A stretch of DNA of 64,000 bases from an uncultured Sulfitobacter sp. GTDB lineage: Bacteria > Pseudomonadota > Alphaproteobacteria > Rhodobacterales > Rhodobacteraceae. The notes beneath the pieces are model-generated. The model had not been told where the DNA came from, ran no database searches, and worked only from the letters and a program-made list of their open reading frames with translations. The stretch lies in assembly GCA_905182645.1 (NCBI GenBank), contig CAJJCJ010000001.1:1-64000 (forward strand), given 5' to 3'. Below are positions 45,002 to 63,915 of this stretch, one piece after another; the stretch's first letter is position 1, and every line of letters starts with the position of its first letter. A program made the translations under genes and the position numbers.

Positions 45002-46039
45002 CTAAGCGTTGAGCATTCTTCGTTGCTCTGGCATCCCCATGGAAGCAAGAATCGGTTGCGCAGTTTCGGCAGCTTTGAATTCCGGTTTCGTGTTCAAGCC
45101 CCTCCAGTTTGCGAGTAGGAGGCTCTGTGCCGTTGCACCCCCGAGGGTCGTTCCAGGGCCCAAAACGATGAACATATCAGGCATGAACTCCAAGGCAGCA
45201 GTTCGGATCGCTTTTGTAAAATCGAACGTTTCAACAACTTGGTGACCAAGTGTATATTCATAAAGTGCGGTTAGATTGCTCGCTTTTGGATTCCAAATGG
45301 CACCGCGGCCGTCTATGAGCGGCAATTCTGGCTGTAAGAACAGACTTTCTGAAAGATCGTCGCGGCCTTTTGCAGCGACAGAAAGTTGTAGTTTGCTGTG
45401 GAAAGCGGCATGGTTTGGCAGTCTCATAGGATAGCGTTCCTGAAGGCGAGGCATCTCTGCCTCGAATGCGCTCAGGCCTGCTTCGTTACCTGCAAGAACA
45501 AACATTCCACCTAAATTGATGGAAATCGACAGTACCATGTCTTTTCGCCCGTCGATCTCTTGGATCTTGGATCCAATAGCGTTGCGTTGCTGTTGAACGG
45601 GAGCCCATTCATCATCAACAAAGGGGTATATCAATTGTCCTCCAATGAGCGACTCTTGCATTAGAGAGCCCATTGTATTGACGATTTCAAGCCCGCCCAT
45701 TGGATCCAAAGCACCAGCGCAGGCGAGGGCGGTGTACCAGCCCATGGAGTTGCCGGTCACTGCCAGAATGTCGATTTCATTGCGGTCAATGGACAGAAAG
45801 TCGCAATATGAACAAGCGTAGATCAATGGCGAGGCGTTGTCGCCGCGCGTGTGGGTCGCGCCAGAAAAACGCGCGGCGCTATCGAGCTCCGTCACCGTTT
45901 TTTGATTTTGACTGCTGCGATACCCATCAAATTTCTTGATGAGGCCCGCGTTGTTTGCATGCAATTTCGCCAAATACCCAAGTTCTGTTCTATTATATGT
46001 TCCGCGACCGGGCGCAACTACAATGGCAGTTTTCTTCAT
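45002..46039 (-). CDS. FabD-like acyltransferase (malonyl-CoA:ACP transacylase family)
   Basis: This 345-aa protein has the acyltransferase nucleophile motif AVTGNSMGWYTALACAG (GxSxG with Ser about residue 99) and the catalytic His in LPNHAAFHSKLQ. The late segment VLGPGTTLGGATAQSL resembles the FabD C-terminal region. It differs clearly from housekeeping FabD and has no acyl carrier protein nearby. Its ATG overlaps the E1 stop (ATGA), so the two are coupled. I infer a role in moving an acyl group made by the E1 enzyme, but the acceptor is unknown. Its stop is 30 bp from the IS630 tip. Confidence 0.75.
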   Translation of the reverse strand: MKKTAIVVAPGRGTYNRTELGYLAKLHANNAGLIKKFDGYRSSQNQKTVTELDSAARFSGATHTRGDNASPLIYACSYCDFLSIDRNEIDILAVTGNSMGWYTALACAGALDPMGGLEIVNTMGSLMQESLIGGQLIYPFVDDEWAPVQQQRNAIGSKIQEIDGRKDMVLSISINLGGMFVLAGNEAGLSAFEAEMPRLQERYPMRLPNHAAFHSKLQLSVAAKGRDDLSESLFLQPELPLIDGRGAIWNPKASNLTALYEYTLGHQVVETFDFTKAIRTAALEFMPDMFIVLGPGTTLGGATAQSLLLANWRGLNTKPEFKAAETAQPILASMGMPEQRRMLNA

Positions 46040-48219
46040 TTTTGTTCCCACAACTTTTTTGCGGCCTCTGTTATGGACAGTCTCGATGGCATCGTTGACG
46101 CATAAGACGGGCCGGTTGGGATGAAGCTATCTTCTGCGGCGATGCGTGAGTGTGGCAAATCTGTACGTTCAGACAACAGTGCCATCAGGGCTTCGGACTG
46201 GCCGCCAGTACCACGACATTCATCAACGATCAGTACTTTTTTGGCACCATCCAATGCCGAAAGAATATTGCCAACGGGTAAGGGGGCTAACCAGCGAAGA
46301 TCAATAATGCGGCATTCAATGCCTTGAGCTTTCAGATCAACTGCGGCCTGCGTCGAGAGGTAGCGCCCGTTGCCATAGGTTAGGATTGCTAATGGCCCTG
46401 TGCCATCAACGCCGACTTCCCCGAGTGGTATACTGCGATCTGGAGACGGATAAACTGATGTCCATTTGTTGTCTTTGTCCTCCAATAGGTCACGCACATG
46501 ATAAAGGGCGATAGGTTCGATCACTACAACGACACGTTGTTCTTCTCTTGCTAGGCGCACACATTCGCGTAGCATCATCGCGGCCTCGTCACCACGTGAC
46601 GGGCAAGCGATCACAATCCCAGGGATATCCCGAAGAACCGCTAATGAGTTGTCGTTGTGGAAATGCCCACCAAAACCTTTCTGATATCCAAGCCCGGCAA
46701 TCCGTAAAACCATGGGATTGGTGAATTGGCCATTTGAGAAAAACGAAAGTGTTGCGGCTTCGCCTCGAAGTTGGTCTTCGGCATTATGAAGGTATGCCAA
46801 AAATTGGATCTCTGGCATCGGAATAAAACCGTTGTGCGCAAGGCCAATTGCGAGGCCCAGAACGGATTGTTCGTCGAGAAGTGTGTCTATCACCCGGTCA
46901 GGACCAAACCTGTCTGACAGTTTTTGTGTTACCCCGTATACGCCGCCCTTATGCCCGACATCCTCACCCATCATGACAACTTCTTGATGTTGCTGCATCA
47001 GGTCGGTTAACGCCCAATTCAGAAGTCGCGACATTGGCTGTTGCTTGTCTATCTGCTTGTAGTCTGATCCAAAGATGTTTGATCGATCAACATCGGACGG
47101 ACCGTTGGTGGCCTGACAATCGCGGGCTGGGGGCACAATGGCAGCCATGACTTCACTCGCTTTTGTGAGTCGTGGGCGATTTACGACTTCTTTCGCGATA
47201 CGCAGGCATTGGTCTTCTGCATTTTGATAAATCCTGAGGATTTGCCTTTGGGTCAGTATGTCTTTCCCGAGCAGAAGGGCCGCAGAATGTATAAGCGGGT
47301 CGTCGTCTTCCCACTTCTCAAAGATGAATTTTTTCAGATAAGTTTGCTGCATATCTGATCCTGCGTGGCCGTAAAGCCGCACAAGGCTAAGGTGCAGAAA
47401 GGCTGGCTTTTTACGATACCTTACGAAGTCGGCGGCTTCACGAGCTACACGGTAAGTGTCATAAATGTCCAAGCCGTTTGCATGAAAGTACTTTAGCCCG
47501 GGTTTTGCTTCGAAATTTGCGGCAATCCAACCTTTTGGGGTCTGCGTAGATATGCCGATGCCATTGTCTTCACAAACAAATAGCAGCGGAAGGGGCACCG
47601 ACTGAAAGGACGTCCAGCAGGCTGAGTTGATTGCACCCTGTGCCGTCGAATGATTTGCAGAGGCGTCGCCAAAAGAGCACATCACGATCGAGTCATCGTT
47701 CAGGACACGGTGTTCCGGTGACATCCTTTTTGCCAAGGGGACAGAATATGCGGCACCAACTGCTTTTGGCAAATGACTCGCTATCGTCGAAGTTTGGGGC
47801 GGAATGTTCAGGGCCCTTGAGCCCAATACCTTATGCCGTCCACCCGATATGGGATCTTCCTTTGCTGTGGAAAAACTCAACAGCATGTCCCATGCAGGCG
47901 TTACACTGGGGACTTGCGATGAGCGCATCGTTTGAAATGCACCATCTCGGTAGTGCAAAAACGCAATGTCATCTGGTCGTAGGGCTGAAGCGATTGCTGC
48001 CATCCCTTCGTGCCCTGATGATCCAATAGTGTAGAACCCTTGTCCTTCCGATTGCATTTTTCGCGAGCGCCTGTCCAGATTTCTGGACAGGCACTGCGCC
48101 CGGAAGATAGCGACTGCGTCTTCTGGGTTGAGCGGGCCATTGGTGACTTGAATTTCAGGGAGATCCCCAGCGGCCAGCCTCGTTCGAAACGCTTTGTCTA
48201 CGACGTCTGCTCGGTCCAT
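46036..48219 (-). CDS. Fused alpha-beta E1 of a 2-oxoacid dehydrogenase
   Basis: This 727-aa thiamin-diphosphate enzyme joins an E1-alpha-like half and an E1-beta-like half of the branched-chain/pyruvate dehydrogenase type. The alpha half (1 to ~380) has the ThDP motif CSFGDASANH...N and the SSGHEGMAAIASAL segment. The beta half (~395-727) has VVMMGEDVGHKGGVYGVTQ, LLDEQSVLGLAIGLAHNG and the E1-beta C-terminal fold. It should decarboxylate a 2-oxoacid and hand the acyl group to a lipoyl E2. No E2 or E3 gene is in this window, so it must use shared ones. It lies 9 bp after the acyl-CoA dehydrogenase gene. With glutaryl-CoA dehydrogenase-like chemistry next to it, 2-oxoadipate is a candidate substrate (inference). 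Confidence 0.85.
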   Translation of the reverse strand: MDRADVVDKAFRTRLAAGDLPEIQVTNGPLNPEDAVAIFRAQCLSRNLDRRSRKMQSEGQGFYTIGSSGHEGMAAIASALRPDDIAFLHYRDGAFQTMRSSQVPSVTPAWDMLLSFSTAKEDPISGGRHKVLGSRALNIPPQTSTIASHLPKAVGAAYSVPLAKRMSPEHRVLNDDSIVMCSFGDASANHSTAQGAINSACWTSFQSVPLPLLFVCEDNGIGISTQTPKGWIAANFEAKPGLKYFHANGLDIYDTYRVAREAADFVRYRKKPAFLHLSLVRLYGHAGSDMQQTYLKKFIFEKWEDDDPLIHSAALLLGKDILTQRQILRIYQNAEDQCLRIAKEVVNRPRLTKASEVMAAIVPPARDCQATNGPSDVDRSNIFGSDYKQIDKQQPMSRLLNWALTDLMQQHQEVVMMGEDVGHKGGVYGVTQKLSDRFGPDRVIDTLLDEQSVLGLAIGLAHNGFIPMPEIQFLAYLHNAEDQLRGEAATLSFFSNGQFTNPMVLRIAGLGYQKGFGGHFHNDNSLAVLRDIPGIVIACPSRGDEAAMMLRECVRLAREEQRVVVVIEPIALYHVRDLLEDKDNKWTSVYPSPDRSIPLGEVGVDGTGPLAILTYGNGRYLSTQAAVDLKAQGIECRIIDLRWLAPLPVGNILSALDGAKKVLIVDECRGTGGQSEALMALLSERTDLPHSRIAAEDSFIPTGPSYASTMPSRLSITEAAKKLWEQK

Positions 48220-48228
48220 ATTTTGTTC

Positions 48229-49437
48229 CTATGCAAACGCTTGCAAGCCAGTTTGTGCACGGCCGAGGATTAAAGCATGAACGTCATGCGTGCCTTCATA
48301 TGTGTTTACCGTTTCCAAATTGATCATGTGGCGAATAACCCCAAATTCTAGGCTAATTCCATTGCCGCCGTGCATATCACGTGCATGACGAGCGATTTCC
48401 AACGCTTTGCCACAATTATTTCGCTTGATGAGTGAGATCATTTCTGGCGCGGCGTGGGCTTCGTCCATCAATCTGCCAACCCTTAGCGCAGCCTGAAGTC
48501 CAAGTGCTATCTCTGTTTGTATGTTCGCGAGCTTGAGTTGAAACAACTGTGTCTGGGCGAGTGGTTTGTTGAACTGCCTCCTATCCAAGCCATATTGCCG
48601 GGAAGAGAACCAACAGTCCTCAGCAGCCCCCATAACGCCCCATGCAATGCCGAAACGAGCACGGTTAAGACAACCAAATGGACCTTTTAGGCCCTCGATG
48701 TTTGGTAAAAGTGCATCTTCGCCTACCTCGACGTTTTGCATTACAATTTCTCCAGTTACAGAAGCTCTTAGGCTTAACTTTTTTTCAATTTTCGGAGTGC
48801 TAAGGCCAGCCGTTCCTTTCTCAAGTACAAAACCTTTGATTTTCCCTTGGTGTGCTTCCGATTTAGCCCAAACGACAAACACGTCTGCAATAGGCGAATT
48901 GCTGATCCATGTCTTTGAGCCGTTGAGGCGGTAGCCTGACTCAGTTTTCAGGGCAGTTGTTGTCATGCCGCTGGGATCTGATCCTGCATCTGGCTCAGTC
49001 AGACCAAAACAGCCGATAAATTCACCTGTTGCCAATTTTGGCAAGTATTTGCGCCGTTGTTCTTCGGTGCCGTAGGCGTAAATCGGATACATGACGAGAC
49101 TGGATTGAACTGACATCATCGACCGGTAGCCGCTATCGACCCGTTCTACTTCGCGCGCAACTAACCCATAAGCGACATAGCTTGCGCCGAGACCTCCATA
49201 TTCCTCTGGAATCGTTGTCCCAAGAAATCCCATTTCACCCATTTCACGAAATATTTCTGGGTCGGTCTCCTCCTCAGAAAACGCCTTTAGGATTCGTGGC
49301 ACAAGTTTTTCCTGCGCAAATGCGTGTGCCGAATCTTTTATCATCTTTTCTTCGTCATGAAGCTGGTTTTCTAATAGAAATGGGTCTTCCCAATTGAATG
49401 AAGATAAGGCTGGGGCACTTTGTGGGCTTAGTTCCAT
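48229..49437 (-). CDS. Acyl-CoA dehydrogenase, glutaryl-CoA dehydrogenase-like
   Basis: This 402-aa flavoenzyme has [35 protein letters not shown] and the catalytic glutamate in [21 protein letters not shown], all typical of glutaryl-CoA dehydrogenases. The FNWEDPF segment near the N-terminus is also characteristic of that group. It would oxidatively decarboxylate glutaryl-CoA to crotonyl-CoA, passing electrons to ETF. The start at 49437 was preferred because upstream codons cross the intergenic operator. It leads the minus-strand operon acd-E1-fabD-like and diverges from the preA operon. Confidence 0.87.
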
Positions 49438-49474
49438 GAGGGGCTCCGAAAAAGAAGAAATGAAGTATTGATAA

Positions 49475-49491
49475 AGGGACGTATACTCCCT
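49475..49491. promoter_or_regulatory. Putative MarR operator, site 1
   Basis: AGGGACGTATACTCCCT is a near-palindrome (AGGGA.GTA and TACTCCCT with one extra base). It lies between the two divergent operons, 38 bp from the acyl-CoA dehydrogenase start. It shares TATACTCCCTA with the site at 53461 and TATACT(A)CCC with the perfect palindrome in front of the marR gene. Confidence 0.5.
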
Positions 49492-49593
49492 ATAGTTCTT
49501 TGTCAAAGGGAAATGAGTTCTGAGAGTCGGCCTTGATATTTAAGGCGATTGGAACTGACCGACCTAAACAAAGCAGTTTGTACAAGGAAAACA

Positions 49594-50937
49594 ATGATGG
49601 CCGATATGAGTGTGGACTTCTGTGGAGTGAAGTTCAAAAACCCGGTGATCATAGCATCACTTGAAACCACCAACAGCCCTGATTTGATTAAGCAGTGTTT
49701 CGACTACGGCGCATCTGGTGCCATTATTAAGACACTGACGGACATCGAAGACATGGCGCGCTTGACGCAAAATTCCAAATACTGCGTGATGAATTCGAAA
49801 GGAGACATCATTCGCGGTAAGGCTGCGCGAGACTTCGTTTTTTACAGCCGTTCAGGTTATTCAAGTACTTACTATAAAGATTGGATTCCTGATCTTATCG
49901 ATACCCAGAAATACGCAGCGGAGCGTGGTGCGCACTTAATCGGGAGCGCTGGCGCGAAAGATGTGAATGGGTGGAAAGACATTTGTCGGACAATTGAAGA
50001 TTGTGGCCTGCCGATGGTCGAGTTGAATTTTGGATGTCCACACCCGGCAATGATGCCCGGCGTCCATGGTGGCTCGATGATTGGTCAAGAGCCGGAAATT
50101 GCTTTTGAGGTTACGCGCCAAGTTTGTGAATCCGTCGATATTCCCGTTGTCGTCAAGCTGACACCAGACCAGTCGAAGCCATTGGAAATTGCTTCCGCCG
50201 CAAAGGAGGCAGGAGCCGCTGCCGTTACGGCGATCAACCGTTATACTGGGTTTGTTGTAGACATCGAGACAGGCCAGCCGCGTATTGGTGGGCCGGCTGG
50301 CATCGGTGGGACTTGGGTTAAGCCGTTGTCTCTTCGCTGGGTCCACCGCATCCACGAAGAACTTGGCATCCCAATTACAGGGTCTAACGGCGTCTTTGAT
50401 CACAAAGACTTAGTCGAATTTATCATGGCTGGTGCAAGTCTTGTTCAGGTTGGTTCTGTCCTGATGGTGAAGGGCGTTAAGTGGTTGCCAAAAATGATCG
50501 ATGGGCTTGAACAGTTCATGGATGACAAGGGTTATAAGACCGTCGACGACATGATCGGGATCGCTTCTAAGCGTTCAGTGAAAGACTATTCGGAACAGTT
50601 TTCGAAGAACCGCATCCACGCAGTTGTCAATGAAGACACTTGTAAGAATCCGACTTGCAACGTGTGTATCCAAGTCTGTTTCTACGAAGCTTTATCACAA
50701 AACCCTGATGGCAAAATCGATGTTCATTTCGATAAATGCATTGGTTGCGAATTGTGTTTGGACGTTTGTCCATTCGATTCAATCGAAATGAATGAGACCT
50801 CACCCAAGCAGTTGGACGAAGGATTTTTCAATATCCCTGACGCTGTATTCGAGCAGGACAAGTTCTTAACCAACAGGAACAACATGGAGACCATTCGACT
50901 TAACAACCCGAAATTTGCAGACGAACCAGCTGAATAA
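49594..50937 (+). CDS. preA: PreA-like dihydropyrimidine/pyridone reductase with two [4Fe-4S] sites
   Basis: This 447-aa protein has an FMN-binding DHODH-type barrel (from VDFCGVKFKNPVI) with the catalytic Cys in ELNFGCPHPAM and the phosphate-binding GITGSNGVFD/QVGSVLM segments. A C-terminal bacterial ferredoxin module follows with two clusters (CKNPTCNVCIQVC and CIGCELCLDVCPF). PreA subunits reduce the 5,6-double bond of uracil with electrons from NADH via PreT. No PreT is present; a ferredoxin and a ferredoxin reductase lie downstream instead. The substrate may be a pyridone or other lactam (inference). The start at ATG 49594 follows AAGGAAAACA. Confidence 0.8.
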   Translation: MMADMSVDFCGVKFKNPVIIASLETTNSPDLIKQCFDYGASGAIIKTLTDIEDMARLTQNSKYCVMNSKGDIIRGKAARDFVFYSRSGYSSTYYKDWIPDLIDTQKYAAERGAHLIGSAGAKDVNGWKDICRTIEDCGLPMVELNFGCPHPAMMPGVHGGSMIGQEPEIAFEVTRQVCESVDIPVVVKLTPDQSKPLEIASAAKEAGAAAVTAINRYTGFVVDIETGQPRIGGPAGIGGTWVKPLSLRWVHRIHEELGIPITGSNGVFDHKDLVEFIMAGASLVQVGSVLMVKGVKWLPKMIDGLEQFMDDKGYKTVDDMIGIASKRSVKDYSEQFSKNRIHAVVNEDTCKNPTCNVCIQVCFYEALSQNPDGKIDVHFDKCIGCELCLDVCPFDSIEMNETSPKQLDEGFFNIPDAVFEQDKFLTNRNNMETIRLNNPKFADEPAE

Positions 50938-50947
50938 GGAGAAGAAC

Positions 50948-51325
50948 ATGGCGATAAACAAAGAACACCGAGAATTCTATCAACTCGATATGGAAGGCGA
51001 TTGGGTAACTCCCAAAGGCTATCCGTCTGGGATCAAGCAGAAAATTCTGTCTGGTCATCTTGATATGGAAAACCGGCAAGGTGGATGGACACGGTTGCTG
51101 AAATTCGACCCAGGTACCTATACCACTGTCCCTTTCGAGCATGACTATTGGGAAGAGGTGCTAGTGCTCACTGGTGATATGTGGGTGGGCAACGAAGGCA
51201 CCGAAGGCGGCGAACGTTTTGGTCCATTCACATATTGCGTTCGCCCCCCGCATGTAGCGCACGGACCCTTCCGCACGGAAGAAGGCTGTCTGTTAGTTGA
51301 AATGCACTACTACGACCCTCAGTAA
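50948..51325 (+). CDS. Cupin-domain protein (ChrR-like)
   Basis: This 125-aa single-cupin protein has metal-ligand residues in FEHDYWEEVLVLTGDMWV (His, Glu) and in RPPHVAHGPFRTEEG (His). It resembles the C-terminal cupin of ChrR-type proteins. The function could be binding or isomerising an intermediate of the ring-cleavage route. AAGGAGAAGAAC precedes the ATG at 50948. A terminator-like hairpin follows (51334-51369), so the genes from amidase onward may be transcribed at another level. Confidence 0.75.
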   Translation: MAINKEHREFYQLDMEGDWVTPKGYPSGIKQKILSGHLDMENRQGGWTRLLKFDPGTYTTVPFEHDYWEEVLVLTGDMWVGNEGTEGGERFGPFTYCVRPPHVAHGPFRTEEGCLLVEMHYYDPQ

Positions 51326-51369: not shown

Positions 51370-51381
51370 CAGGCGTTGAAC

Positions 51382-52728
51382 ATGATCCAAAATCTCACAG
51401 ACTTGTCTCGTAAATTGCAAAGCGGAGCCCTTACTAGTCGTGCACTAGTTGAGGAATGTTTTGAAGGAATCTCTTCTTCCGGTCCTCACGGCGAGAATGC
51501 CTTTCTTAGTCAATATAAAAAGAAAGCGCGGCAAACCGCGAGTTGGATCGATCAAGGACGTAAGAGCGGAATGGTATTGCCAACACATGCCGGTATTCCG
51601 ATCGCCGTTAAGGATCTGTTCGACGTTGCAGGTGAGGTAACACGGGCGGGTTCAAGAGTTTTGGATGACCGACCTGCAGCAGAAAAAAACGCTGAGATTA
51701 TCGACCGTCTTCAGGCAGCTGGCTTCATCATTATCGGCAAAAATAACATGACCGAGTTTGCCTATTCGGGACTAGGTGTAAACGCGCATTTTGGAACGCC
51801 GCTTAACCCACATGATGTAAATGTTCCCCGTGTGCCTGGGGGCTCGTCATCAGGGGCTGGGGTCAGTGTATCGCGCGCGTTGGTGCCTGCGGCTATCGGC
51901 ACAGACACGGGTGGATCTTGTCGTATCCCAGCAGCATTTTGCGGCATAATCGGCTTTAAACCCACATCTACACGGGTCCCTAAGACTGGGGCTATCCCAT
52001 TATCTAAAACATTGGACTGTGTGGGGCCATTTACCACGAGCGTTTCTTGCGCGGCTGTTCTAGATTCGATCTTGTCCGGCGGGGCAGGAGATGATGTTGA
52101 ATCATTTCCTGAAGGTGGAGTGCGGATTGGTGTGCTGGATGGTTACGTCACGGAACACATGGATGATCAAGTTGGCGAGGCATATGAGCGCGTTTTGACT
52201 CGCTTGTCTCAACGTGGAGTGAGGTTGACGCCAGTCAGCATTCCACAACTTGCTGAGTTACCAGAAATTAACAGCAAAGGCGGATTTGTGGGCGCTGATG
52301 CCTATGCATGGCACAAAGAACTCTTAGAAACACGGTTAGATCATTACGACCCGTGGGTGCGAGCTCGTTTCGAAGCAGGCAAATCACAGTCGGCCGCAGA
52401 TTACATCGAACTAGGCGAAAAACGCCGCCGCTTGCGTGCGTTAGTAGCCCAAAAACAAATGTTGTTCGATGCCCTAATCTTGCCGACGGTTCAAATTGTC
52501 GCCCCAACACTAGCAGAGCTAGAAGAAACTGAAAAATCAAATGCCATCAATCTACTATGCCTGCGCAATACCGCAGTAGGAAACTTTCTTGATGTGCCCG
52601 CTGTTTCAATACCGTGCCATGAGATGGGCGATTTGCCCGTCGGCGCGATGTTGTTCGGAATGACCGGTGATGATCGCAGGTTACTATCAATCGCCCGTGG
52701 ATTGGAGCAGGTCATTCGTGGCCGCTAA
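51382..52728 (+). CDS. Amidase-signature family hydrolase
   Basis: This 448-aa amidase has the Ser-cisSer-Lys triad: Lys in IAVKDLFDVAG (about residue 75), the cis-Ser in VPGGSSSGAGVSVS, and the nucleophile Ser in GTDTGGSCRIPAAFCG. It resembles AtzE/GatA-type enzymes that cleave amides, ureas or lactam-like bonds. In this operon it would be the natural candidate to open the reduced ring (inference). ATG 51382 is used; a TTG two codons upstream is possible. DUF2848 follows closely, a recurrent neighbour of amidases. Confidence 0.88.
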   Translation: MIQNLTDLSRKLQSGALTSRALVEECFEGISSSGPHGENAFLSQYKKKARQTASWIDQGRKSGMVLPTHAGIPIAVKDLFDVAGEVTRAGSRVLDDRPAAEKNAEIIDRLQAAGFIIIGKNNMTEFAYSGLGVNAHFGTPLNPHDVNVPRVPGGSSSGAGVSVSRALVPAAIGTDTGGSCRIPAAFCGIIGFKPTSTRVPKTGAIPLSKTLDCVGPFTTSVSCAAVLDSILSGGAGDDVESFPEGGVRIGVLDGYVTEHMDDQVGEAYERVLTRLSQRGVRLTPVSIPQLAELPEINSKGGFVGADAYAWHKELLETRLDHYDPWVRARFEAGKSQSAADYIELGEKRRRLRALVAQKQMLFDALILPTVQIVAPTLAELEETEKSNAINLLCLRNTAVGNFLDVPAVSIPCHEMGDLPVGAMLFGMTGDDRRLLSIARGLEQVIRGR

Positions 52729-53492: not shown

Positions 53493-54029
53493 ATGACCTT
53501 TATTGTCACTGAAAATTGCATCAACTGTAAATTCCAAGACTGCGTTGCGGTGTGCCCTGTTGATTGCTTCTATGAAGGTGAGAATTTTCTCGTCATTCAT
53601 CCGGAGGAATGTATCGATTGCGGAGTCTGCGAGCCAGAATGCCCTGCTGACGCGATCAAACCCGACACTGACTCAGGTTTAGATGAATGGTTGGCGGTGA
53701 ATACGAAGTATGCTGAAATTTGGCCAAACATCGATGAAATTGGAAATGTGCCAAAGGACGCCGAGGACTGGAACGGCAAGCCAAACAAAGCGCATTTACT
53801 TATCACGGGTGAAGAGTCGCCAGAGATCCATTCTCAAAAACCAATCTATGATGCTGGTGATGCGCCGGAAGGCGGGGTTACTGGATCGAGTTATGAAGTC
53901 GAAGGCGCGCGTATCGTCGGACAAGGGATCGAAGACGGGGATACCGTTGCTTTGACGCCCCGCGAACCGTATCCCAGCGACGGTACAGAGATAGACGGGT
54001 TGCGCATCGCGTCCGGCGACGAAGCGTAG
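53493..54029 (+). CDS. fdxA: FdxA-like ferredoxin with a C-terminal extension
   Basis: The first ~112 residues are Fdx[18 protein letters not shown] and [16 protein letters not shown] carry the ligands of one [3Fe-4S] and one [4Fe-4S] cluster, and [19 protein letters not shown] is the usual tail. A 65-residue acidic extension follows that standard FdxA lacks (for example [15 protein letters not shown] and [12 protein letters not shown]). It may dock to a specific partner, such as the PreA-like reductase. The protein should carry electrons between the ferredoxin reductase downstream and the ring reductase. Confidence 0.87.
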
Positions 54030-55803: not shown

Positions 55804-56561
55804 ATGAAAGCACTTGTACCCATCAAGCGCGTGATTGATTACAACTTGAAAGTTTGCGTCAAGGCGGACGGTAGCGGCGTCGACCTTGCTAACGTAAAGA
55901 TGTCAATGAACCCTTTTGACGAGATTGCTGTCGAAGAAGCCATTTGCCTATAAGAAGCCAAAAAAGTCGACGAAGTCATCGTCGTATCAATTGGGGTAAG
56001 GCAGTCTCAGGAAACTTTGCGCACCGCGCTTGCGATGGGCGCTGATCGCGCGATTTTGGTGGTCGCGACTGATGACATTCACACTGATATTGAACCATTG
56101 GCGGTAGCCAAAATTCTCAAGGCGATTGTTGACGAAGAGAAACCGGGAAACGTTCTTGCAGGCAAACAGGTGATCAACAATGACATGAACGCGACGGGTC
56201 AAATGCTTTTGGCGCTAATGGGCTGGAGGCAGGGCACTTTAGCTTCCAAATTAGAGATTGTCGGCGGCGATGCTATCGTGACACGTGAAGTCGATGGCGG
56301 TCTGCAGACCATCCAGGTGAAAATGCCCGCCATCATTACGGTTGACCTACGGTTAAATGAGCCGCGATATGCGTCATTGCCCAACATAATGAAGGCCAAG
56401 AAGAAAATAATGGATGAGAAAACTGCCGCTGATTATGGCGTCGACGTCACACACGCCTTAAAGTTGTAAAAACAGTCGAGCCTGTCAATCGAAAGGCCGG
56501 CGAAATTGTTGGTTCATTCGATGAGCTTGTCGCAAAACTTAAAGAAGTGGGAGCTGTATAA
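55804..56561 (+). pseudogene. etfB: etfB, electron transfer flavoprotein beta subunit, with a stop and a frameshift
   Basis: The reading frame starts [17 protein letters not shown] and continues as normal EtfB, but codon 50 is TAA (55951-55953) where a Lys is expected ([14 protein letters not shown]). It resumes in the same frame through [26 protein letters not shown]. At about 56462 one base is missing after ALKL. Adding a G restores [19 protein letters not shown] and the usual end just before etfA. Two lesions make a functional product unlikely. It would have paired with EtfA to take electrons from the acyl-CoA dehydrogenase. Confidence 0.92.
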
Positions 56562-57505
56562 TGGCCGTTCTTCTTCTCGCTGAGGTCACTGACGGTGTTT
56601 TGGCACTGGATGCCACGGCAAAAGCTGTCACAGCTGCTACAAAGGTGGGTGATGTAACCGCACTGTGTTGTGGTGGTAGTGCCGCCGCCGCCGGTAGTGC
56701 CGCCGCTAATATTTCCGGGGTGTCCAAGGTACTTGTTGCCGAAGATATTTCTCTGAGTCACCGCATGGCAGAATCAACTGCCGCATTGATCGTATCATTG
56801 GCAAATGACTATGAGCATATCGTGGCTCCTGCCACTACCGATGCTAAAAACGTTATGCCTCGCGTTGCAGCATTAGTGGATTCAATGATGAACTCGGACG
56901 TATCCGGAATTGTCGATGGCAATACGTTCGAACGCCCTATTTATGCTGGAAATGCCGTTCAAATAGTTAGGTCTTCGGATTCAATAAAAGTTGTTACTAT
57001 ACGAACATCTACGTTTGATGCCGCTGGGGATGGTGGTTTGGCCGGCATAGAGACAGTTCCGGCTGCAGCTAGCCTTGGTTTGTCATTGTGGCTCGAAGAC
57101 AAGGTTGCTGCAAGTGACCGCCCCTAGCTGACTTCATCTGGTGTGGTTATCTCCGGCGGTCGTGGCGTTGGGTCTGAAGACGACTTCAAAATTGTCGAAG
57201 CGCTGGCCGACAAGCTGGGTGGAGCCGTCGGTGCATCACGAGCAGCGGTGGATGCGGGTCTTGCACCAAACGACTGGCAGGTTGGTCAGACAGGTAAAGT
57301 AGTCGCCCCAGATCTTTACGTAGCGGTCGGTATTTCTGGTGCTATCCAGCACTTGGCGGGTATGAAGGATAGTAAGATAATTGTAGCTATAAACAAAGAC
57401 GAAGAGGCACCAATTTTTCAGGTAGCAGATTATGGCCTTGTTGCTGATCTTTTCGATGTAGTGCCAGAACTAATTGAAAAATTGTACTATACTGGGGGTC
57501 GTTGA
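56561..57505 (+). pseudogene. etfA: etfA, electron transfer flavoprotein alpha subunit, with a stop and an IS-altered end
   Basis: The frame begins MAVLLLAEVTDGVLALDATA. It reads EtfA to KVAASDRP, where TAG (57125-57127) replaces the expected Glu, and then continues as Etf[46 protein letters not shown] and the FAD-binding end. After ELIEKL the last codons come from the IS630 tip (YYTGGR, then stop at 57505), so the IS end also changed the C-terminus. It is most likely non-functional. Confidence 0.92.
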
Positions 57506-57593
57506 GTACCCGAAGAGCATGTTGAAGTTTAGGAGAAAATTGATTTATGTTCTCATATAAATCGTTCAAATTTTCTGTCCCTTGAGGACCACC
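57487..57593 (+). repeat. Inverted repeat copy 2 (IS630-family 5' end, right boundary of island)
   Basis: This is the inverse copy of 44859-44971. On the plus strand it reads tip CTATACTGGGGGTCG..., then the transposase start region with ATA in place of ATG (INRSNFLSLED). It is cut off at about 57593 by the next IS3-family element. The tip lies at the very 3' end of etfA. Confidence 0.85.
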
Positions 57594-57606: not shown

Positions 57607-57735
57607 ATGGCTGGCGTGTTCTCAGACAAGGTCAAAAAGGCTGAGAACAAAGACGGCGAGATCAAAGAGCTTCACGCCAAGATCGGCCAGCTTGGCGGTG
57701 GAAAATGATTTTTTGTCACAAGGGCTAAAGCGATG
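57607..57735 (+). pseudogene. IS3-family OrfA tail with a frameshift
   Basis: The frame from 57607 reads DGEIKELHAKIGQL as in IS3 OrfA. An extra G at about 57693 moves the expected AVENDFLSQGLKR into the next frame. In that frame it ends at TGA overlapping the OrfB start, as in functional IS3 elements. The N-terminal helix-turn-helix is missing. Confidence 0.7.
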
Positions 57736-58587
57736 AGCCCGTCTGAACGCCGCGAGATGATCCGTAAAGAGAACACAGACTTGAGCCTGACGCGCCAATG
57801 TAAGCTGCTCAAGATCAGCCGTTCCTCGATCTATTACACGCCAGTCGGCTTTGATCAGGCGACGATTGATCTGATGCATGAGATTGATCGGATATTTACG
57901 AAGTATCCGTTCTTTGGCAGCCGTCAGATTGCGGCTTATCTTCCCCAGTCAGGGTTCTCGGCAGGGCGACACCGTGTGCGTCGCCTGATGGGCATCATGG
58001 GATTACAGGCCATCTACAAAGGGCCAAACACCAGCAAGAAGCACCCTGAGCACCGCATTTATCCATACCTGCTAAGAAAGCTGCCAATCACGCGGCCCAA
58101 TCAGGTTTGGTGCAGCGACATCACCTACATCCCAGTCAAAAACGGCTTTCTGTATCTGGTGGCGATCATGGATTGGGCGACGCGCAAAGTGCTGACTTGG
58201 CGGCTCTCAAATACGCTGGATGCTAGTTTCTGTGTTGAGGCGCTGGAGGAGGCTATTTCCAAATACGGCAAGCCAGAGATCATGAACACCGATCAGGGCA
58301 GCCAATATACAGGCTCCGGCTGGATCACAACTTTGACTGAAGCCAAAATCAAAATCTCAATGGATGGCAGGGGCCGCTATCTGGACAACATCTTTATCGA
58401 ACGCCTGTGGCGGTCGTTGAAACAGGAGGCCATCTATCTGCATGAAATCACCGACGGTTTCCAAGCGAAACGGATCATCGATGACTGGATTGGATTTTAC
58501 AATTCTGAGCGCCCTCACACCGCCCTTGATAAACGGACACCGGACATCGCATACTTCACCCACGCGCAGATACGAAAAGCGGCATGA
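57733..58587 (+). CDS. IS3-family transposase OrfB
   Basis: This 284-aa integrase-core protein has the three catalytic acids: Asp in VWCSDITYIPV, Asp in IMNTDQGSQYTG and Glu in NIFIERLWRSLK. An HTH_21 region precedes them (GSRQIAAYLPQSGFSAGRHRVRRLM). The open frame is intact, but productive transposition needs the OrfAB fusion and OrfA is damaged here. Confidence 0.93.
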   Translation: MSPSERREMIRKENTDLSLTRQCKLLKISRSSIYYTPVGFDQATIDLMHEIDRIFTKYPFFGSRQIAAYLPQSGFSAGRHRVRRLMGIMGLQAIYKGPNTSKKHPEHRIYPYLLRKLPITRPNQVWCSDITYIPVKNGFLYLVAIMDWATRKVLTWRLSNTLDASFCVEALEEAISKYGKPEIMNTDQGSQYTGSGWITTLTEAKIKISMDGRGRYLDNIFIERLWRSLKQEAIYLHEITDGFQAKRIIDDWIGFYNSERPHTALDKRTPDIAYFTHAQIRKAA

Positions 58588-58874: not shown

Positions 58875-58910
58875 AGTTTGGGAGGTAATTCATAGTTCTT
58901 TATGTCGGAT

Positions 58911-60053
58911 CTAACTTCGCCTACGTTTGATGAATGATTTTATTACTGCCCACCCTAAAGAAATGACACCAATTTTGTGTGAGGTCGAGACAGTTCCGCC
59001 AGACAGTACTGCATTGCAATTAGAAATGAATTTTTCTAACAAAAAGTCGACAAAACCAGTCACCAGTTCAGGCCTATTAAACTGCGCTAGCATCCCTTGT
59101 ATCTGGAAATGGAATGTAACCCCCACATTTGTGAAACAGGTAGTTCCGTTTGGAGTGAGAACGTAACGGAGTTCACCTTTTACGTTGGACTGTCCGCCAT
59201 TGTCAGCACCTTGACCCAATAAAGTACCAGTGTGATCGGTTTCGTTAGCTTCGAAAGTCCCAGATCCGCCGAATTTTGCTTTGATAGGTCCAAATGCGAT
59301 TGCAACTTCGCCTTCGAATGCGGATCCATCCTGCTCAGTCAGGCTGGCTCCTGGTACACATGCCGCTACCGCTCTTATATCAGAAAACAGGGTCCAAACA
59401 TTACCGAGCGGATGGGGAAGGGCGATCGACCGCTCTACAACAGTCCAGTTCCCTTCAGCTCTCACAGAACCTCGTGGATGCTGAGCGGCCTGAGCGGGAG
59501 CGTTACCAAATTTGGGTTCAAAAGGCGTGAAACTGGGTCTCACCCCACGTTTTTTTTGGGCCAGTTTGGGAGGCGCAATACCTTCCATTTCCAATTGGCT
59601 CGCGACGTCTATAATCGCCTGAACGATGCCCTGATAACCTGTGCATCGACATAAATTTCCACTTAATTCGTGTCGGATAGTTGCTTCTGATGGTGAGGCA
59701 AACCGATTCAGAATGTCATGCGACGTGGCCAACATCCCAGGTGTGCAGAATCCGCATTGCAAGGCATGATGTCGTGAAAACGCCTCACGGATTTTGATCA
59801 TAACAGGATCCCCTGCGTAGCCTTCGATAGTCTCGATTTGTGCGCCGTCGATGGAATTGGCAAATGTGATGCAGGAACGCGTAGGTTTGCCATCAACTAT
59901 AACGGTGCATGCACCGCAAACACCCTGTTCGCATCCCAGATGAGTGCCGGTCAAATCCAGATGGTCGCGCAAAACTTCGGCCAATTGGGTTCTGTCCGTT
60001 ACCTGAACTTGATGGGTTTCACCATTCACGGTTAAAGTTAGGTTCTTATTCAT
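58911..60053 (-). CDS. [2Fe-2S] subunit fused to a CoxG/SRPBCC domain
   Basis: This 380-aa protein joins two parts. Residues 1-~160 are a xanthine-dehydrogenase small subunit with a plant-type cluster (LGCEQGVCGACTVIVDG) and a second cluster (QCGFCTPGM and LCRCTGYQ). Residues ~200-345 are a CoxG-type SRPBCC domain (SIALPHPLGNVWTLFSDIRA, VPGASLTEQDGSAFEGEVAI), ending with a possible membrane-anchoring helix (GVISLGWAVIKSF) and a basic tail. CoxG anchors CO dehydrogenase to the membrane in Oligotropha, so the fusion may bring this enzyme to the membrane. Its ATG overlaps the end of the FAD-subunit gene. Confidence 0.88.
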   Translation of the reverse strand: MNKNLTLTVNGETHQVQVTDRTQLAEVLRDHLDLTGTHLGCEQGVCGACTVIVDGKPTRSCITFANSIDGAQIETIEGYAGDPVMIKIREAFSRHHALQCGFCTPGMLATSHDILNRFASPSEATIRHELSGNLCRCTGYQGIVQAIIDVASQLEMEGIAPPKLAQKKRGVRPSFTPFEPKFGNAPAQAAQHPRGSVRAEGNWTVVERSIALPHPLGNVWTLFSDIRAVAACVPGASLTEQDGSAFEGEVAIAFGPIKAKFGGSGTFEANETDHTGTLLGQGADNGGQSNVKGELRYVLTPNGTTCFTNVGVTFHFQIQGMLAQFNRPELVTGFVDFLLEKFISNCNAVLSGGTVSTSHKIGVISLGWAVIKSFIKRRRS

Positions 60054-60879
60054 TTGCCAACGCCCCCTTAACGCAACGTTGCAACGCGATGGCGAAGAGG
60101 TGGTTCTTTACTTGATCTAGGTCAGGAGAGTGCAGTTTTAGCTCAGCCTTGATAATATCAAGTGTGGGTATGTTACCTGTTTGTGCTAGTTCTTTAGCGA
60201 GGTGGTTCAGGACCAACGGGGCTCCTGAACCTGCTCCAAGTACAATCCTTGAGTACTGCTTTGTTGGATCAGCCACCCAGGCAACAATCGCGTCCGCGAA
60301 CTCGCCAACTTTGCGGCAAATCTTGTAGTACCCCCAAACTGTCTTGTCTGAATATTTTGGAACGAGGACGGAAGTCAAAATTTCACCTGGCTCGAGTGTT
60401 GTCCGATATGCGCCCTGCATGAATTCTACCATCGGTGTCTTTCTGGTGTCTTTTCCGACAGATGTTATGATAAGCGTTGCGTTTAGTGCGGTCATTGCCG
60501 TCACCCAATCCGCAGCTGGATCGGCGTGGCATAGACTGCCGCCTAATGTTCCTTTGTTCCGGATAGCTCGATAAGCGATCCCTGATGCTACATAGGGCAT
60601 CATCCCGCAACTTGGGTCAGGCGTTTTCCCATCTTCTATCTCGGCATGCCGTGTAGCGGCGCCAAAAGCGACGAACGCTTGGGTCTGTGTGATTTTGCGT
60701 AATGCCGGTGTTTGGGCAACGTCCACTAACCTGTCTGGGCGCGCCAAGCGCAAATTCAGCATTGGGCCCAATGATTGTCCACCTGCGATGATCTTGGTGT
60801 CTCCATCATTCTGGCTCAGAATTCCAGCGGCTGACGCGATATCCGCGGAAATACACAGTTCAAATGCTACAGGTTTCAA
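60046..60879 (-). CDS. FAD-binding medium subunit of a molybdenum hydroxylase
   Basis: This 277-aa CoxM-type subunit has the FAD-binding segments IIAGGQSLGPMLNLRLARP and GTLGGSLCHADPAADW, and it shares the CO-dehydrogenase flavoprotein C-terminal domain. It carries electrons from the [2Fe-2S] subunit to the acceptor. Both ends overlap neighbouring genes (ATGA with the large subunit upstream; 8 bp with the small subunit downstream), so the operon is large-medium-small. Confidence 0.92.
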   Translation of the reverse strand: MKPVAFELCISADIASAAGILSQNDGDTKIIAGGQSLGPMLNLRLARPDRLVDVAQTPALRKITQTQAFVAFGAATRHAEIEDGKTPDPSCGMMPYVASGIAYRAIRNKGTLGGSLCHADPAADWVTAMTALNATLIITSVGKDTRKTPMVEFMQGAYRTTLEPGEILTSVLVPKYSDKTVWGYYKICRKVGEFADAIVAWVADPTKQYSRIVLGAGSGAPLVLNHLAKELAQTGNIPTLDIIKAELKLHSPDLDQVKNHLFAIALQRCVKGALANE

Positions 60880-63221
60880 GTGATTTCCCTTTCAGCCTCG
60901 GCGCCAGCCAACAATGCGCTTAGAATCTTGTGAGGCGTTGCCGGAAGTTCGTTGATTTCTATTTTTTGAGGTTGCAGCGCGTCGTTGATCGCATTCAAGA
61001 TTGCCCCCCCCGGCGCAATTGCGGCACCCTCGCCAACGCCTTTGATGCCATGCCTTGTGTATGGGGACAAAGTTTCCTTATGAGACAATCTAAAGTGCGG
61101 TAGTTCTGCTGGACCGGGTAGAATATAATCTGCAAGCGTTGAGGTCAGCGGTTGCCCATTAGCATCATAGAGAGCTTCTTCAAATAATGCAGTGCCGATT
61201 CCCTGCGCAGCGCCACCGTAAGTCTGGCCTTCAAGAATTAGCGGGTTTACGCGCTTGCCGCAATCTTCGAAAACGACGTAGTCTTGTACATCGACCTTGC
61301 CGGTGTCTTTATCTACCTCAACAATAGCGGCGTGCGTGGCATAAGTGAAAACGCCCGTATCAATATCAGGCTTGTAACCTTCCGTAACCTCTAACCCAGC
61401 AGTATCGACATCGTCTGGCAATTGATCTGGACGCAGATACCAGGCCTTGGCGATCGAGGAAAAGCTCACGCTTGCGTGCCCATTATAGGCACGTGCATTC
61501 TTGAGTTGGATATCAGTCGGTTCACATTGCAGCAAATGCGCGGCGTGAATCTTGATGCGTCCCGAGAGGGCTTCCGCTGCTTTCGAAACTGCGCCACCTG
61601 CCATCACCATTCCGCGTGAAGCATAGGCTCCGGTGGAATAAGGCGTCATGCCAGTGTCACCCATAACCACATTTATGCTCTTAATGTCGACCGTCAGCCA
61701 CTCACTGGCCATTTGGGCAATAGTAGTCTCGAGACCCTGTCCAAAACTGTGATTGCCGGAACGTACTTCAACAGAACCAGACGGCGTTAGTTTTACCATC
61801 GCTTGTTCGTATCCTGGGACAAGCGGCAAGCCCCATGCGGCAAAGACTTTGGTACCGTGCGCAGATTGTTCCGTAAATGTTGAGAATCCGATGCCAAGAC
61901 TCCGCCCCTCTTTACGAGCTTTTGCTTGCCTGATTCGAAAGCCCTTTAGGTTGACAGCTTTTTCGGCCTGAACAACACTGTCTGGATAATCGCCACTATC
62001 GTAGAATTTACCGGTCACAGTAGTATAAGGCATCAAGGAACCTGCGATGAGATTTTCCTTGCGTACATCCGCCGGCTCGCGGCCAACCGCGCGAGCAATT
62101 GCATCAATAGTCAGCTCCATTGCGAAGCAAACACCTGGACGGGCCACTCCTCTATATGGGGTGAAGGACGGCTTGTTGGTTGCCACCGAATAAGTGTTAC
62201 ATCGATATCCCTTGATATCATAAGGGCCTGGGAGGTTGCCGCCGGCTTGAGCGGCTTCTAGACAGGCCGTAAAAGGCCAGACCGAATAAGCACCCACATC
62301 GACTGTGATGTCCGCATCCAAACCCAACAATTTGCCATTATTATCTGCGTAGGCAGTTATCTTGTAGTGATGTTGGCGTGTGTTGGCACCTGCAACAAGA
62401 TGTTCACGTCGATCTTCCGTCCACCGAATCGGGCGTCCTGTTTTTTTGGCCACCCATGACACTGTCAGCTCTTCGGGTTGCAAAACGCATTTATAACCAA
62501 AGCCACCACCAACGTCTGGGGCTATAACTCGGACCTGGCCTTGATCCATTTGCAGGAACTCGGAAATTCCGGTTCGGATTAGATGAGGAACTTGAGTCGA
62601 AGTATAAACCACCAGTTGATTTGAACGCTCGTCCCAATAGCTGAGTGTTCCTTTTCCCTCCATCGGGTTCATGCATTGACGCGCCGTTTTGTATTCTCGC
62701 TCGATAACAACTGTAGCGTCACGTTTTGCGGTTTCAATATCTCCTTCAAATGATGTCTCAACAAATAGATTGTCGCCCCAGTCCTCGTGCAATAGCTCAG
62801 ATTGAGGTTCGCGGGCTTTCAATGCATCGATGACCGCGGGTAAAGGATCGATGTCCAAAATAACTTGTTCAGCAATATCCTCGGCCTCCGCGCGGGTCGG
62901 AGCAATGCAAATTGCGATGCACTCGCCAACATATCTAACTTTGTCGCGTGCGAGCGAATGAAAATCTGAAGGCTTGTAACCAGGAAGTGACGATTCAGCG
63001 CGTATTGGTAAGACGTCGTGCAGATCATCAGCTATAAAAACTTGAGAGGAATACGCGGATGGTTTTTGAACTGAGCGGATGCGACCATGGGCGATTGGGC
63101 TGCGTACATAGGCCGCCTCCCAAAGCTTCGGGAATTTCAAATCACCGACGAACTTAGCCTGACCATGCAACAAGCGACGGTCTTCTTTTCTCTGAACTCT
63201 TGCGCCGATTCCTGTGGACAC
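60876..63221 (-). CDS. Molybdopterin-binding large subunit of a xanthine-dehydrogenase-family hydroxylase
   Basis: This 781-aa large subunit starts GIGARVQRKEDRRLLHGQAKF and has VIAPDVGGGFGYKCVLQPEE. The active-site loop is PYRGVARPG, a variant of AYRGAGR, and the catalytic Glu is in GVGEGAAIAPGG near the end. It hydroxylates a carbon next to nitrogen or an aldehyde using water. The loop rules out true CO dehydrogenase. In this context I infer hydroxylation of a pyridine carboxylate to a pyridone. It is the first gene of the three-gene operon and diverges from marR. Confidence 0.9.
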   Translation of the reverse strand: MSTGIGARVQRKEDRRLLHGQAKFVGDLKFPKLWEAAYVRSPIAHGRIRSVQKPSAYSSQVFIADDLHDVLPIRAESSLPGYKPSDFHSLARDKVRYVGECIAICIAPTRAEAEDIAEQVILDIDPLPAVIDALKAREPQSELLHEDWGDNLFVETSFEGDIETAKRDATVVIEREYKTARQCMNPMEGKGTLSYWDERSNQLVVYTSTQVPHLIRTGISEFLQMDQGQVRVIAPDVGGGFGYKCVLQPEELTVSWVAKKTGRPIRWTEDRREHLVAGANTRQHHYKITAYADNNGKLLGLDADITVDVGAYSVWPFTACLEAAQAGGNLPGPYDIKGYRCNTYSVATNKPSFTPYRGVARPGVCFAMELTIDAIARAVGREPADVRKENLIAGSLMPYTTVTGKFYDSGDYPDSVVQAEKAVNLKGFRIRQAKARKEGRSLGIGFSTFTEQSAHGTKVFAAWGLPLVPGYEQAMVKLTPSGSVEVRSGNHSFGQGLETTIAQMASEWLTVDIKSINVVMGDTGMTPYSTGAYASRGMVMAGGAVSKAAEALSGRIKIHAAHLLQCEPTDIQLKNARAYNGHASVSFSSIAKAWYLRPDQLPDDVDTAGLEVTEGYKPDIDTGVFTYATHAAIVEVDKDTGKVDVQDYVVFEDCGKRVNPLILEGQTYGGAAQGIGTALFEEALYDANGQPLTSTLADYILPGPAELPHFRLSHKETLSPYTRHGIKGVGEGAAIAPGGAILNAINDALQPQKIEINELPATPHKILSALLAGAEAEREIT

Positions 63222-63306: not shown

Positions 63307-63324
63307 CAAGTAGTATACTACCCA
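63307..63324. promoter_or_regulatory. Putative MarR operator, site 3 (perfect palindrome)
   Basis: GTAGTATACTAC (63310-63321) is a perfect 12-bp palindrome in the 169-bp gap between the molybdenum hydroxylase operon and marR. With its flank it shares TATACT(A)CCC with sites 1 and 2. A weaker related sequence (TTAGTATATAG) lies around 63350. Size and location fit an autoregulatory MarR operator. Confidence 0.6.
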
Positions 63325-63390
63325 TTTTTTTCAATCTTAATCTTAATCTGTTAGTATATAGAAACCGAACGATTAACTACATGGGTATCA

Positions 63391-63915
63391 ATGGAAAAAG
63401 ACGTAAAAATTGCCGACCTTTTAGAAAAAAATAAAAGACCAGGAAAAGTTCGTAGCAGAAAGTACCGTGAATTATGGTCTCGTCCAGGATACCTTGTGCG
63501 TCGCCTACATCAAATTCACGTTGGTTTATTTACGGAGGAATGCGGGGATGAGGACATAACTCCAGTCCAATTTGGGATGCTCTCAGCTTTGGATAACGAC
63601 GAGGAAATGGACCAACTTACTCTTTCAACCGCAGTTGGTGTTGACCGTGTAAGCGGGGCTGATGTGATTCGCCGATTGGAGCGTCGAGGCTTGCTAGAAA
63701 GGAACTCGTCCGAAAAGGACAAGCGCGCAAAATTAATTAAGATTACCGATGCGGGGAAGATGTATGTAAATCAAGTCAGCCCATTAATGGCTAGAGCTCA
63801 GGCAAAACTTGTAGAACCGCTTACTGCCGATGAACGCGAGGAATTTCTTCGCTTAATCAAGAAGTTGGTGGATGCAAATAATAAATCTAGTCGAGCCCCA
63901 ATGGGATCAGCTTAG
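63391..63915 (+). CDS. MarR-family transcriptional regulator
   Basis: This 174-aa protein has the MarR winged helix-turn-helix: ITPVQFGMLSALDN, then LSTAVGVDRVSGADVIRRLERRG as recognition helix and LIKITDAGKMYVNQ as wing, with dimerisation helices at both ends. It probably represses the divergent molybdenum hydroxylase operon until a small aromatic acid binds. The picolinate cluster of Alcaligenes is controlled by a MarR protein (PicR), a parallel known from the literature. The GC content is lower than that of its neighbours, consistent with acquired DNA. Confidence 0.9.
   Translation: MEKDVKIADLLEKNKRPGKVRSRKYRELWSRPGYLVRRLHQIHVGLFTEECGDEDITPVQFGMLSALDNDEEMDQLTLSTAVGVDRVSGADVIRRLERRGLLERNSSEKDKRAKLIKITDAGKMYVNQVSPLMARAQAKLVEPLTADEREEFLRLIKKLVDANNKSSRAPMGSA

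Follow-up and report, generated by a model that had tools for sequence, protein, structure and literature searches.

A gene island in an uncultured Sulfitobacter that may encode a reductive branch of picolinate catabolism

Gene content and borders of the island

The window analysed here is a stretch of 64,000 nucleotides from an uncultured Sulfitobacter sp. (assembly GCA_905182645.1, contig CAJJCJ010000001.1, positions 1 to 64,000), whose right-hand part carries a gene island that, judged from its sequence and with a probability of about two in three, serves the catabolism of picolinate by a reductive branch. The key gene codes for a PreA-like FMN/4Fe-4S reductase (49597–50937, plus strand; the open reading frame, ORF, opens at 49549), which we propose as a 6-hydroxypicolinate reductase. 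It is followed on the same strand by a ChrR-type cupin (50948–51325, from Pfam), an amidase-signature hydrolase of the PRK07056 subfamily that may act as lactam hydrolase (51376–52728), a DUF2848 protein with a predicted FAH-like fold (52743–53441), an FdxA-type ferredoxin with a C-terminal extension, above the FdxA_Protbact cut-off and the proposed electron donor of the reductase (53493–54029), a ferredoxin-NADP+ reductase (FNR)-like protein matching PRK10926 below its cut-off (54068–54865), and a 3-hydroxybutyryl-CoA dehydrogenase above the PRK07530 cut-off (54905–55789). To the left, on the minus strand, lie a glutaryl-CoA dehydrogenase (GCDH; 48229–49506), assigned from solved-structure matches, a fused alpha-beta 2-oxoacid dehydrogenase E1, putatively acting on 2-oxoadipate (46036–48219), and its partner, an acyltransferase-like protein that resembles FabD/MdcH below the cut-offs (45002–46051). 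To the right, three minus-strand genes (together 58911–63221) encode a PicA-like molybdenum hydroxylase, with a small 2Fe-2S subunit fused to a CoxG domain (58911–60053), a medium FAD subunit (60046–60879) and a large molybdopterin subunit (60876–63221), the candidate picolinate 6-hydroxylase. A PicR-like regulator of the MarR family stands next to them on the plus strand (63391–63915).

All gene classes named in a preliminary description of positions 45002–63915 were found there by family and profile scans, and so were an acyltransferase-like gene, a cupin, an IS3-type remnant and the MarR regulator, which that description had left unnamed. No oxygenase was recognised in the island set, leaving aside the ChrR-type cupin, which has no assigned role, and Pfam revealed no PreT-like or dihydropyrimidinase-like protein among 14 island proteins. 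The electron transfer flavoprotein (ETF) of the preliminary description is present as genes, etfB (55804–56475) and etfA (56561–57508), both on the plus strand, but it is not intact, since etfB is broken by in-frame stops and etfA by one; contig C6 of the same genome has an ETF-alpha frame free of interruptions. ETF genes matching island etfBA occupy the same place in two relatives (L041 and L043). A remnant of an IS3-type transposase OrfB, named by eye (57733–58587, plus strand), separates etfA from the hydroxylase genes.

The right end at 63915, as first described, did not hold. Directly after the MarR gene follow five genes of a LivHMGFK-type (branched-chain-type) ABC transporter (64111–68606), and two copies of an insertion sequence (IS) bracket the wider stretch. 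The left copy, of IS110 type by eye, lies on the plus strand at 42935–44353 (transposase ORF 42951–44183) and the right copy at 69993–71411, outside the window on the same contig. Both measure 1419 bp, are in direct orientation and share 99.7% identity, so that the island reaches about 71.4 kb on the contig. The G+C content between them is 0.491, against 0.548 upstream and 0.544 downstream, and the bracketed stretch looks like a composite mobile element. Past the right copy (contig C1, 71644–75230) further transposase-like fragments and a gene remnant were seen by eye, which suggests a mobile-element hot spot.

Recurrence of the gene set in relatives

A profile built from two sequences, used in a pattern scan of a collection of 84,980 species, returned at least 75 loci, from which four weak or partial ones (L104–L107) were dropped and 71 (L033–L103) retained, each with a stretch of 3–21 kb around the PreA gene. 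Their PreA-like proteins are 48–88% identical to the island protein over the best segment. By record title or taxonomy most carriers belong to the Betaproteobacteria (38, including 25 Burkholderiales) and Alphaproteobacteria (23, including 12 Rhodobacterales), and the rest are Gammaproteobacteria (3), Desulfuromonadales (2), one planctomycete title and 4 unplaced records; named carriers include Defluviimonas denitrificans, Sheuella amnicola and Zwartia hollandica. Some titles (Blastopirellula, Bordetella parapertussis, Candidatus Methylopumilus) conflict with gene kinship, at L041, L070, L074, L083, L084, L085 and L094, and these contigs from metagenome-assembled genomes look mislabelled or misbinned.

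The molybdenum hydroxylase is present in 41 of the 71 loci and the MarR regulator in 51. The full series PreA, cupin, amidase, DUF2848, FdxA and FNR, together with the three hydroxylase genes, is kept in 12 loci (L033–L043 and L045), 10 of which also have MarR within the retrieved stretch; recurring in this way, the set is not a chance assembly. Of the gene set that the preliminary description had proposed to look for in relatives, PreA, FdxA, FNR, amidase and DUF2848 are found in these 12 loci; E1 occurs in just four of the 71 loci. The 3-hydroxybutyryl-CoA dehydrogenase had no match in the stretches of the 71 relatives.

Among 98 relatives the matches to the PreA-like protein were only 31–40% identical, and a scan of viral contigs found no relatives. 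A plasmid search gave 181 records, all below 60% identity; among the best 40, every named match bears a PreA or dihydropyrimidine dehydrogenase name.

A divergent member of the PreA family

The reductase aligns to DPD across both of its domains, a dihydroorotate dehydrogenase (DHOD)-type FMN domain and a C-terminal 4Fe-4S domain, and its score with the NCBIfam PreA model (247.7 bits) does not reach the cut-off of 335. The residue alignment comprised DPD, 72 island-type proteins (the window's and those of the 71 loci) and, taken as canonical, 25 PreA homologues of the source genome and relatives. Several DPD residues are kept by the island-type proteins: the catalytic Cys671 in 68, Asn668 in 72, Asn736 in 67 and Lys574 in 71. 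At Glu611 and Thr737, which we take to be uracil-binding residues of DPD, the two groups part completely. The position of Thr737 is occupied by Arg in 72/72 island-type proteins and by Thr in 25/25 PreA homologues, and that of Glu611 by Glu in 0/72 and 25/25, respectively. The residue at Asn609 depends on the alignment, an insertion adjoining it. An arginine that never varies at a presumed site of substrate contact would suit a carboxylated pyridone as the ligand. The genome also holds a second PreA homologue, on contig C15, that keeps the uracil-contact residues.

Uracil reduction driven by ferredoxin is known for a PreA homologue, PydAc, from the portion of PMC7332683 that bears on it, which makes the pairing of the island reductase with FdxA and FNR plausible. 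The PreA-like protein is proposed to be a ferredoxin-dependent 6-hydroxypicolinate reductase.

The catalytic cysteine is lost in four of the 72 proteins, three of which (L097, L101 and L103) belong to a PreA subgroup of 47–52% identity that also includes L102 (and L099). In L097, L101 and L103 the PreA gene has RidA and a betaine transporter of the BCCT family as neighbours, to which L101 and L103 add a protein of the aldehyde-ferredoxin-oxidoreductase family; in L102 it is accompanied by RidA, FdxA/FNR, E1 and a betaine receptor of the OpuAC type. The subgroup may act on a betaine, for instance homarine.

A hydroxylase block shared with a pic-type cluster

The best solved match of the hydroxylase large subunit is quinoline 2-oxidoreductase. 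Among plasmids, p420573 of Paracoccus seriniphilus was the top record for both the hydroxylase and the MarR queries, and it carries nine genes (three hydroxylase subunits, MarR and five ABC transporter genes) in island order at 48–75% identity, with 72% for the large subunit, 61% for MarR and 62–75% for the transporter. The neighbours of this block code for a maleate isomerase, an alpha/beta hydrolase, a leucyl-aminopeptidase-like protein, an isochorismatase-family protein, a PF04909 amidohydrolase and a Rieske oxygenase. They equal the content described for the pic picolinate cluster, with PicG, E, D, F, C and B beside PicA (PMC10142695, in the parts that treat the cluster), and the P. seriniphilus cluster is accordingly of pic type; a title in the reference list of the same paper gives PicR as a MarR-type regulator. 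The PF04909 amidohydrolase resembles solved aromatic-acid decarboxylases, as expected of PicC. The matching of single proteins with PicB, D, E and F is in part our assumption, and no NCBIfam model named these P. seriniphilus candidates. Variovorax paradoxus has the same pic-type set, with one gene annotated as 2,5-dihydroxypyridine 5,6-dioxygenase, and by similarity Burkholderia arboris, three Caballeronia records and a second Variovorax have pic-type clusters with the same hydroxylase family; PicG was not found in either of the two Variovorax stretches.

The kinship of the hydroxylases was followed in trees of the large subunit. The first contained 39 PreA-linked sequences (the window's and those of 38 among the 71 loci), 7 from pic clusters and 6 from other operons, and left out 33 loci in which the hydroxylase was absent, too short or below 45% identity; the pic rows fell in three places among the PreA-linked rows. 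As a control the large subunit was searched in 385 genomes of the same class, probably the Alphaproteobacteria, which gave 44 places besides its own, and 20 of these (at most one per genome, all with at least 50% identity) were fetched with their flanks and added to make 72 rows. Eleven of the 20 control hydroxylases group with those of other operons, two (L185 and L190) form long branches at the edge of the PicA-like side, and L171–L175 group next to P. seriniphilus and the PreA rows of Rhodobacterales type. All five of the latter carry PicB3-like (72–74%) and PicB4-like (51–60%) genes, PicC was found in two of the five genomes, and none of the seven control genomes tested has a PreA-like protein at E 1e-30. 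A more careful tree of 41 of the 72 rows (LG+G4), with groups defined by gene content, splits off the eight hydroxylases from other operons at 100/100 and again nests the pic hydroxylases among the PreA-linked ones at three places. Arrangements that force either group into a single clade are rejected by the approximately unbiased (AU) test, with p 6e-10 for the pic group and p 2e-30 for the PreA-linked group. In the MarR tree P. seriniphilus nests with the Rhodobacterales-type rows at a support of 99, and many other joins are weak.

The preliminary description had advanced picolinate as a guess from the chemistry. The shared hydroxylase-regulator-transporter block in a pic-type cluster, together with the interleaved hydroxylases in the trees, now supports picolinate as the island substrate. 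A second molybdenum-hydroxylase large subunit in the window (15741–17987) has 30% identity to the P. seriniphilus PicA-like protein.

Two modules that exclude each other in the stretches examined

Matches to PicB3, B4, C, D, E, F and G, counted from 35% identity across half of the length, were found in 0/71 PreA stretches and nowhere in contig positions 1–84000. Conversely, in 0/7 pic stretches (18–31 kb) was there a match to PreA, amidase, cupin, DUF2848, HyuAB, FdxA or FNR, nor to E1, the acyltransferase-like protein, GCDH, 3-hydroxybutyryl-CoA dehydrogenase or RidA. PicC was not found in the source genome, which is 84% complete, and the same query finds PicC in two of seven other genomes. 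Within the stretches examined, the oxidative and the reductive modules exclude each other. One hydroxylase family therefore feeds either the one module or the other, and the natural branch point between the two routes is probably 6-hydroxypicolinate.

Proposed lactam opening and lower pathway

The slot directly after PreA is filled by HyuA in 31 of the 71 loci, by the cupin or amidase in 21 and by neither in 14, with 5 leaving no room to tell. In the HyuA group neither DUF2848 nor a cupin was found, whereas 19 of the 21 loci of the amidase group have DUF2848; the cupin is present only in loci that also carry the amidase. HyuA and HyuB of L068 are hydantoinase/oxoprolinase proteins by Pfam. Two unrelated types of amide-opening machine thus appear, from their sequences, to occupy the same slot after the reductase. 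Elsewhere in the window, outside the island (29663–37731), ORF translations read by eye contain a HyuA/HyuB-like pair, after which come an amino-acid-oxidase-like gene and a transporter of the tripartite tricarboxylate type.

The structure model of the DUF2848 protein (pLDDT 84.6) resembles FAH-family enzymes, e.g. Cg1458 and FAHD1, with a TM-score of about 0.55 and a root mean square deviation of 5–7 Å. Enzymes of this family act on 2-oxo or enol acids, and the DUF2848 protein is proposed to be a tautomerase or hydrolase of a 2-oxo or 2-enamino acid. RidA-family genes occur in 7 of the 71 loci, as would be expected if a 2-imino acid were released.

For the carbon chain that remains, GCDH has as its best solved match 4w9u, deposited as an acyl-CoA dehydrogenase, followed by the GCDHs 3gnc, 3eom and 1sir (E-values of 8e-179 to 3gnc and 1.6e-161 to 1sir), and a second copy with 75% identity lies on contig C8. 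The E1 is scarce, with matches at E 1e-100 in 5 of 289 genomes, its own included. It adjoins GCDH in two of the four other genomes, G212 (78%) and G072 (73%), and the 19 kb retrieved there contain no PreA. Among the PreA loci E1 is found together with GCDH in the window, L037, L041 and L042. The acyltransferase-like gene adjoins E1 in two of the four other genomes (G072 and G278) and also in L037, L041, L042 and L102. This linkage supports a step from 2-oxoadipate to glutaryl-CoA, which falls short of proof; the genome holds two matches to the E2 family PF00198. In G212 (L113) and G072 (L114) E1 and GCDH stand beside a gene that by eye is of LysR type, where they possibly form a general 2-oxoadipate dehydrogenase unit that lacks an E2 of its own.

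Proposed route and alternatives

From this gene content we infer a route, including its substrates, the bond reduced, the order of steps and the lower pathway. Picolinate would be imported by the Liv-type ABC transporter and converted by the PicA-like molybdenum hydroxylase to 6-hydroxypicolinate, an intermediate common to the oxidative pic pathway. The PreA-family reductase would then take the place of PicB monooxygenation and reduce one C=C of the ring, with electrons passing from NADPH through FNR to the dedicated ferredoxin. Opening of the lactam would fall to the amidase, together with the cupin and with the DUF2848 protein of predicted FAH-like fold, or to HyuAB in many Betaproteobacteria, and the opened product would release ammonia to yield 2-oxoadipate. 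The fused E1, with E2 and E3 borrowed from the host, would give glutaryl-CoA, and GCDH, a hydratase encoded elsewhere and the 3-hydroxybutyryl-CoA dehydrogenase would lead on to acetoacetyl-CoA. The same order, from hydroxylation through reduction and lactam opening to 2-oxoadipate and glutaryl-CoA, had been put forward in the preliminary description. This order agrees with the module swap, the changes at the active site, RidA in some relatives and the E1-GCDH linkage; the lower pathway is less certain, with E1 in 4/71 loci and ETF broken. In wider terms, the odds appear better than even that Rhodobacterales and many Betaproteobacteria possess a complete picolinate pathway, free of ring-cleaving oxygenases, which branches off at 6-hydroxypicolinate through a new PreA-family reductase, the modules having been switched several times while the hydroxylase was kept, and which uses two unrelated lactam openers.

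Several observations weigh against this scheme. The 14 loci with neither ring-opener beside PreA include 13 that also lack such a hydroxylase in the stretch. E1 is confined to L037, L041, L042 and L102, and the Rhodobacterales-type loci L035, L036, L039, L040 and L045 have none in about 10 kb upstream, so that their lower pathway may differ or lie elsewhere. In genome G251 the E1 has no GCDH or acyltransferase-like gene beside it though the contig leaves room, and in G278 the contig stops at E1. The pic label of the plasmid clusters is drawn from their gene content. Two hydroxylases on the PicA-like side of the tree (L176 and L177) have neither module nearby, which means that the family may have other substrates. 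The MarR regulators of the Burkholderiales pic clusters are not interleaved in their tree, the nesting being confined to P. seriniphilus. Finally, DHOD acting on orotate places the hydride on the carboxylate-bearing carbon; a reductase working in this manner would reduce C2=C3, and 2-oxoadipate would not be formed directly.

It is rather unlikely that the true substrate is an N-methylated or otherwise substituted picolinate (homarine, a pyridine dicarboxylate or quinaldate), a reading in which the hydroxylase, the reductase and the lactam hydrolase stay the same and homarine would yield methylamine instead of ammonia. It is favoured by the PreA subgroup with roughly 50% identity, which has RidA and betaine transporters as neighbours (BCCT in L097, L101 and L103, OpuAC in L102; families confirmed for L101 and L102), and by L060 (13660–15057) and L088 (near 10618), in which a decarboxylase of the UbiD family and an additional molybdenum hydroxylase near the PreA-cupin-amidase genes perhaps feed pyridine dicarboxylate into the pathway. 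The island transporter, however, is of the Liv type common to the pic-type cluster of P. seriniphilus (62–75%), and no gene for methylamine use or demethylation was recognised among the island proteins.

Quite unlikely is a reductase that saturates C2=C3 in the manner of DHOD and leads to 2-amino-hexenedioate, E1 and GCDH belonging to a neighbouring route. This would agree with the DHOD-type FMN domain, in which Cys and Lys are kept, and with the scarcity of E1 among the loci. It is opposed by the joint occurrence of E1 and GCDH in the window and three relatives and by RidA in seven loci, and no aminotransferase was recognised by eye among the families common to at least 5 loci.

A reductive nicotinate pathway as in Azorhizobium or Eubacterium barkeri, from 6-hydroxynicotinate through tetrahydro-oxonicotinate to glutarate, is very improbable. 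It likewise passes from a hydroxylase to a reductase and to glutarate chemistry, and is described as reductive in the relevant part of PMC3511419, from which its marker, a homologue of the 6-hydroxynicotinate reductase of E. barkeri, was also taken. Family scans recognised no second reductase type among the island proteins, no search with the sequence of that reductase having been made. The island hydroxylase groups with pic enzymes and a 2-oxoacid E1 has no evident place in such a pathway, and these two points disfavour the nicotinate-like alternative that the preliminary description had kept. That the island is an ordinary operon for pyrimidine or purine catabolism whose PreA has diverged is scarcely credible and was rejected, for although the reductase is homologous to PreA its uracil contacts are replaced, the contact-keeping PreA homologue lies elsewhere in the genome (contig C15) and no PreT-like or dihydropyrimidinase-like protein was among the 14 island proteins scanned with Pfam.

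If the reductive branch is real, candidate genes become available for reductive breakdown of the pyridine ring beside the known oxidative route, with a named branch point; the PreA/DPD family would extend beyond pyrimidines, DUF2848 would gain a functional setting, and modules would be seen to swap downstream of a shared intermediate. The reductase is easily misread, because its closest named family is the pyrimidine PreA.

Comparison with known systems

Among the open-access matches listed there was no account of reductive picolinate catabolism, of a PreA-like picolinate enzyme or of DUF2848, which does not imply absence from print. The hydantoinase-oxoprolinase family HyuA/HyuB fills the ring-opener slot in the loci counted above, whereas the island proteins include the amidase and no HyuAB. 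The reductive nicotinate pathway of E. barkeri and A. caulinodans, so far as the relevant part of PMC3511419 describes it, follows the same logic, in that a pyridone is made by hydroxylation, reduced and hydrolysed, to end near glutarate or glutaryl-CoA. The island differs from it in the type of reductase and in its pic-kind hydroxylase, and a 2-oxoacid E1 would be expected only for a 2-carboxylate. With PreA and DPD (DPD, PreAT and PydAc; PMC7332683, in part) the island reductase shares the FMN and 4Fe-4S domains and the catalytic Cys and Lys, but its uracil contacts are changed, with Arg at DPD position 737, FdxA and FNR stand in place of PreT, and no pyrimidine genes were recognised near it.

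The closest comparison is the oxidative pic pathway of Alcaligenes faecalis JQ135 and Bordetella bronchiseptica RB50 (PMC10142695, in part), which has in common with the island the PicA-like three-subunit hydroxylase and, at the level of the family, a MarR-type regulator, while the pic-type cluster of P. seriniphilus also shares the ABC transporter block. The steps of PicB to PicG would be replaced in the island by the reductase and the lactam hydrolase. What would be new is the reductive branch, joined to a type of hydroxylase that is already known.

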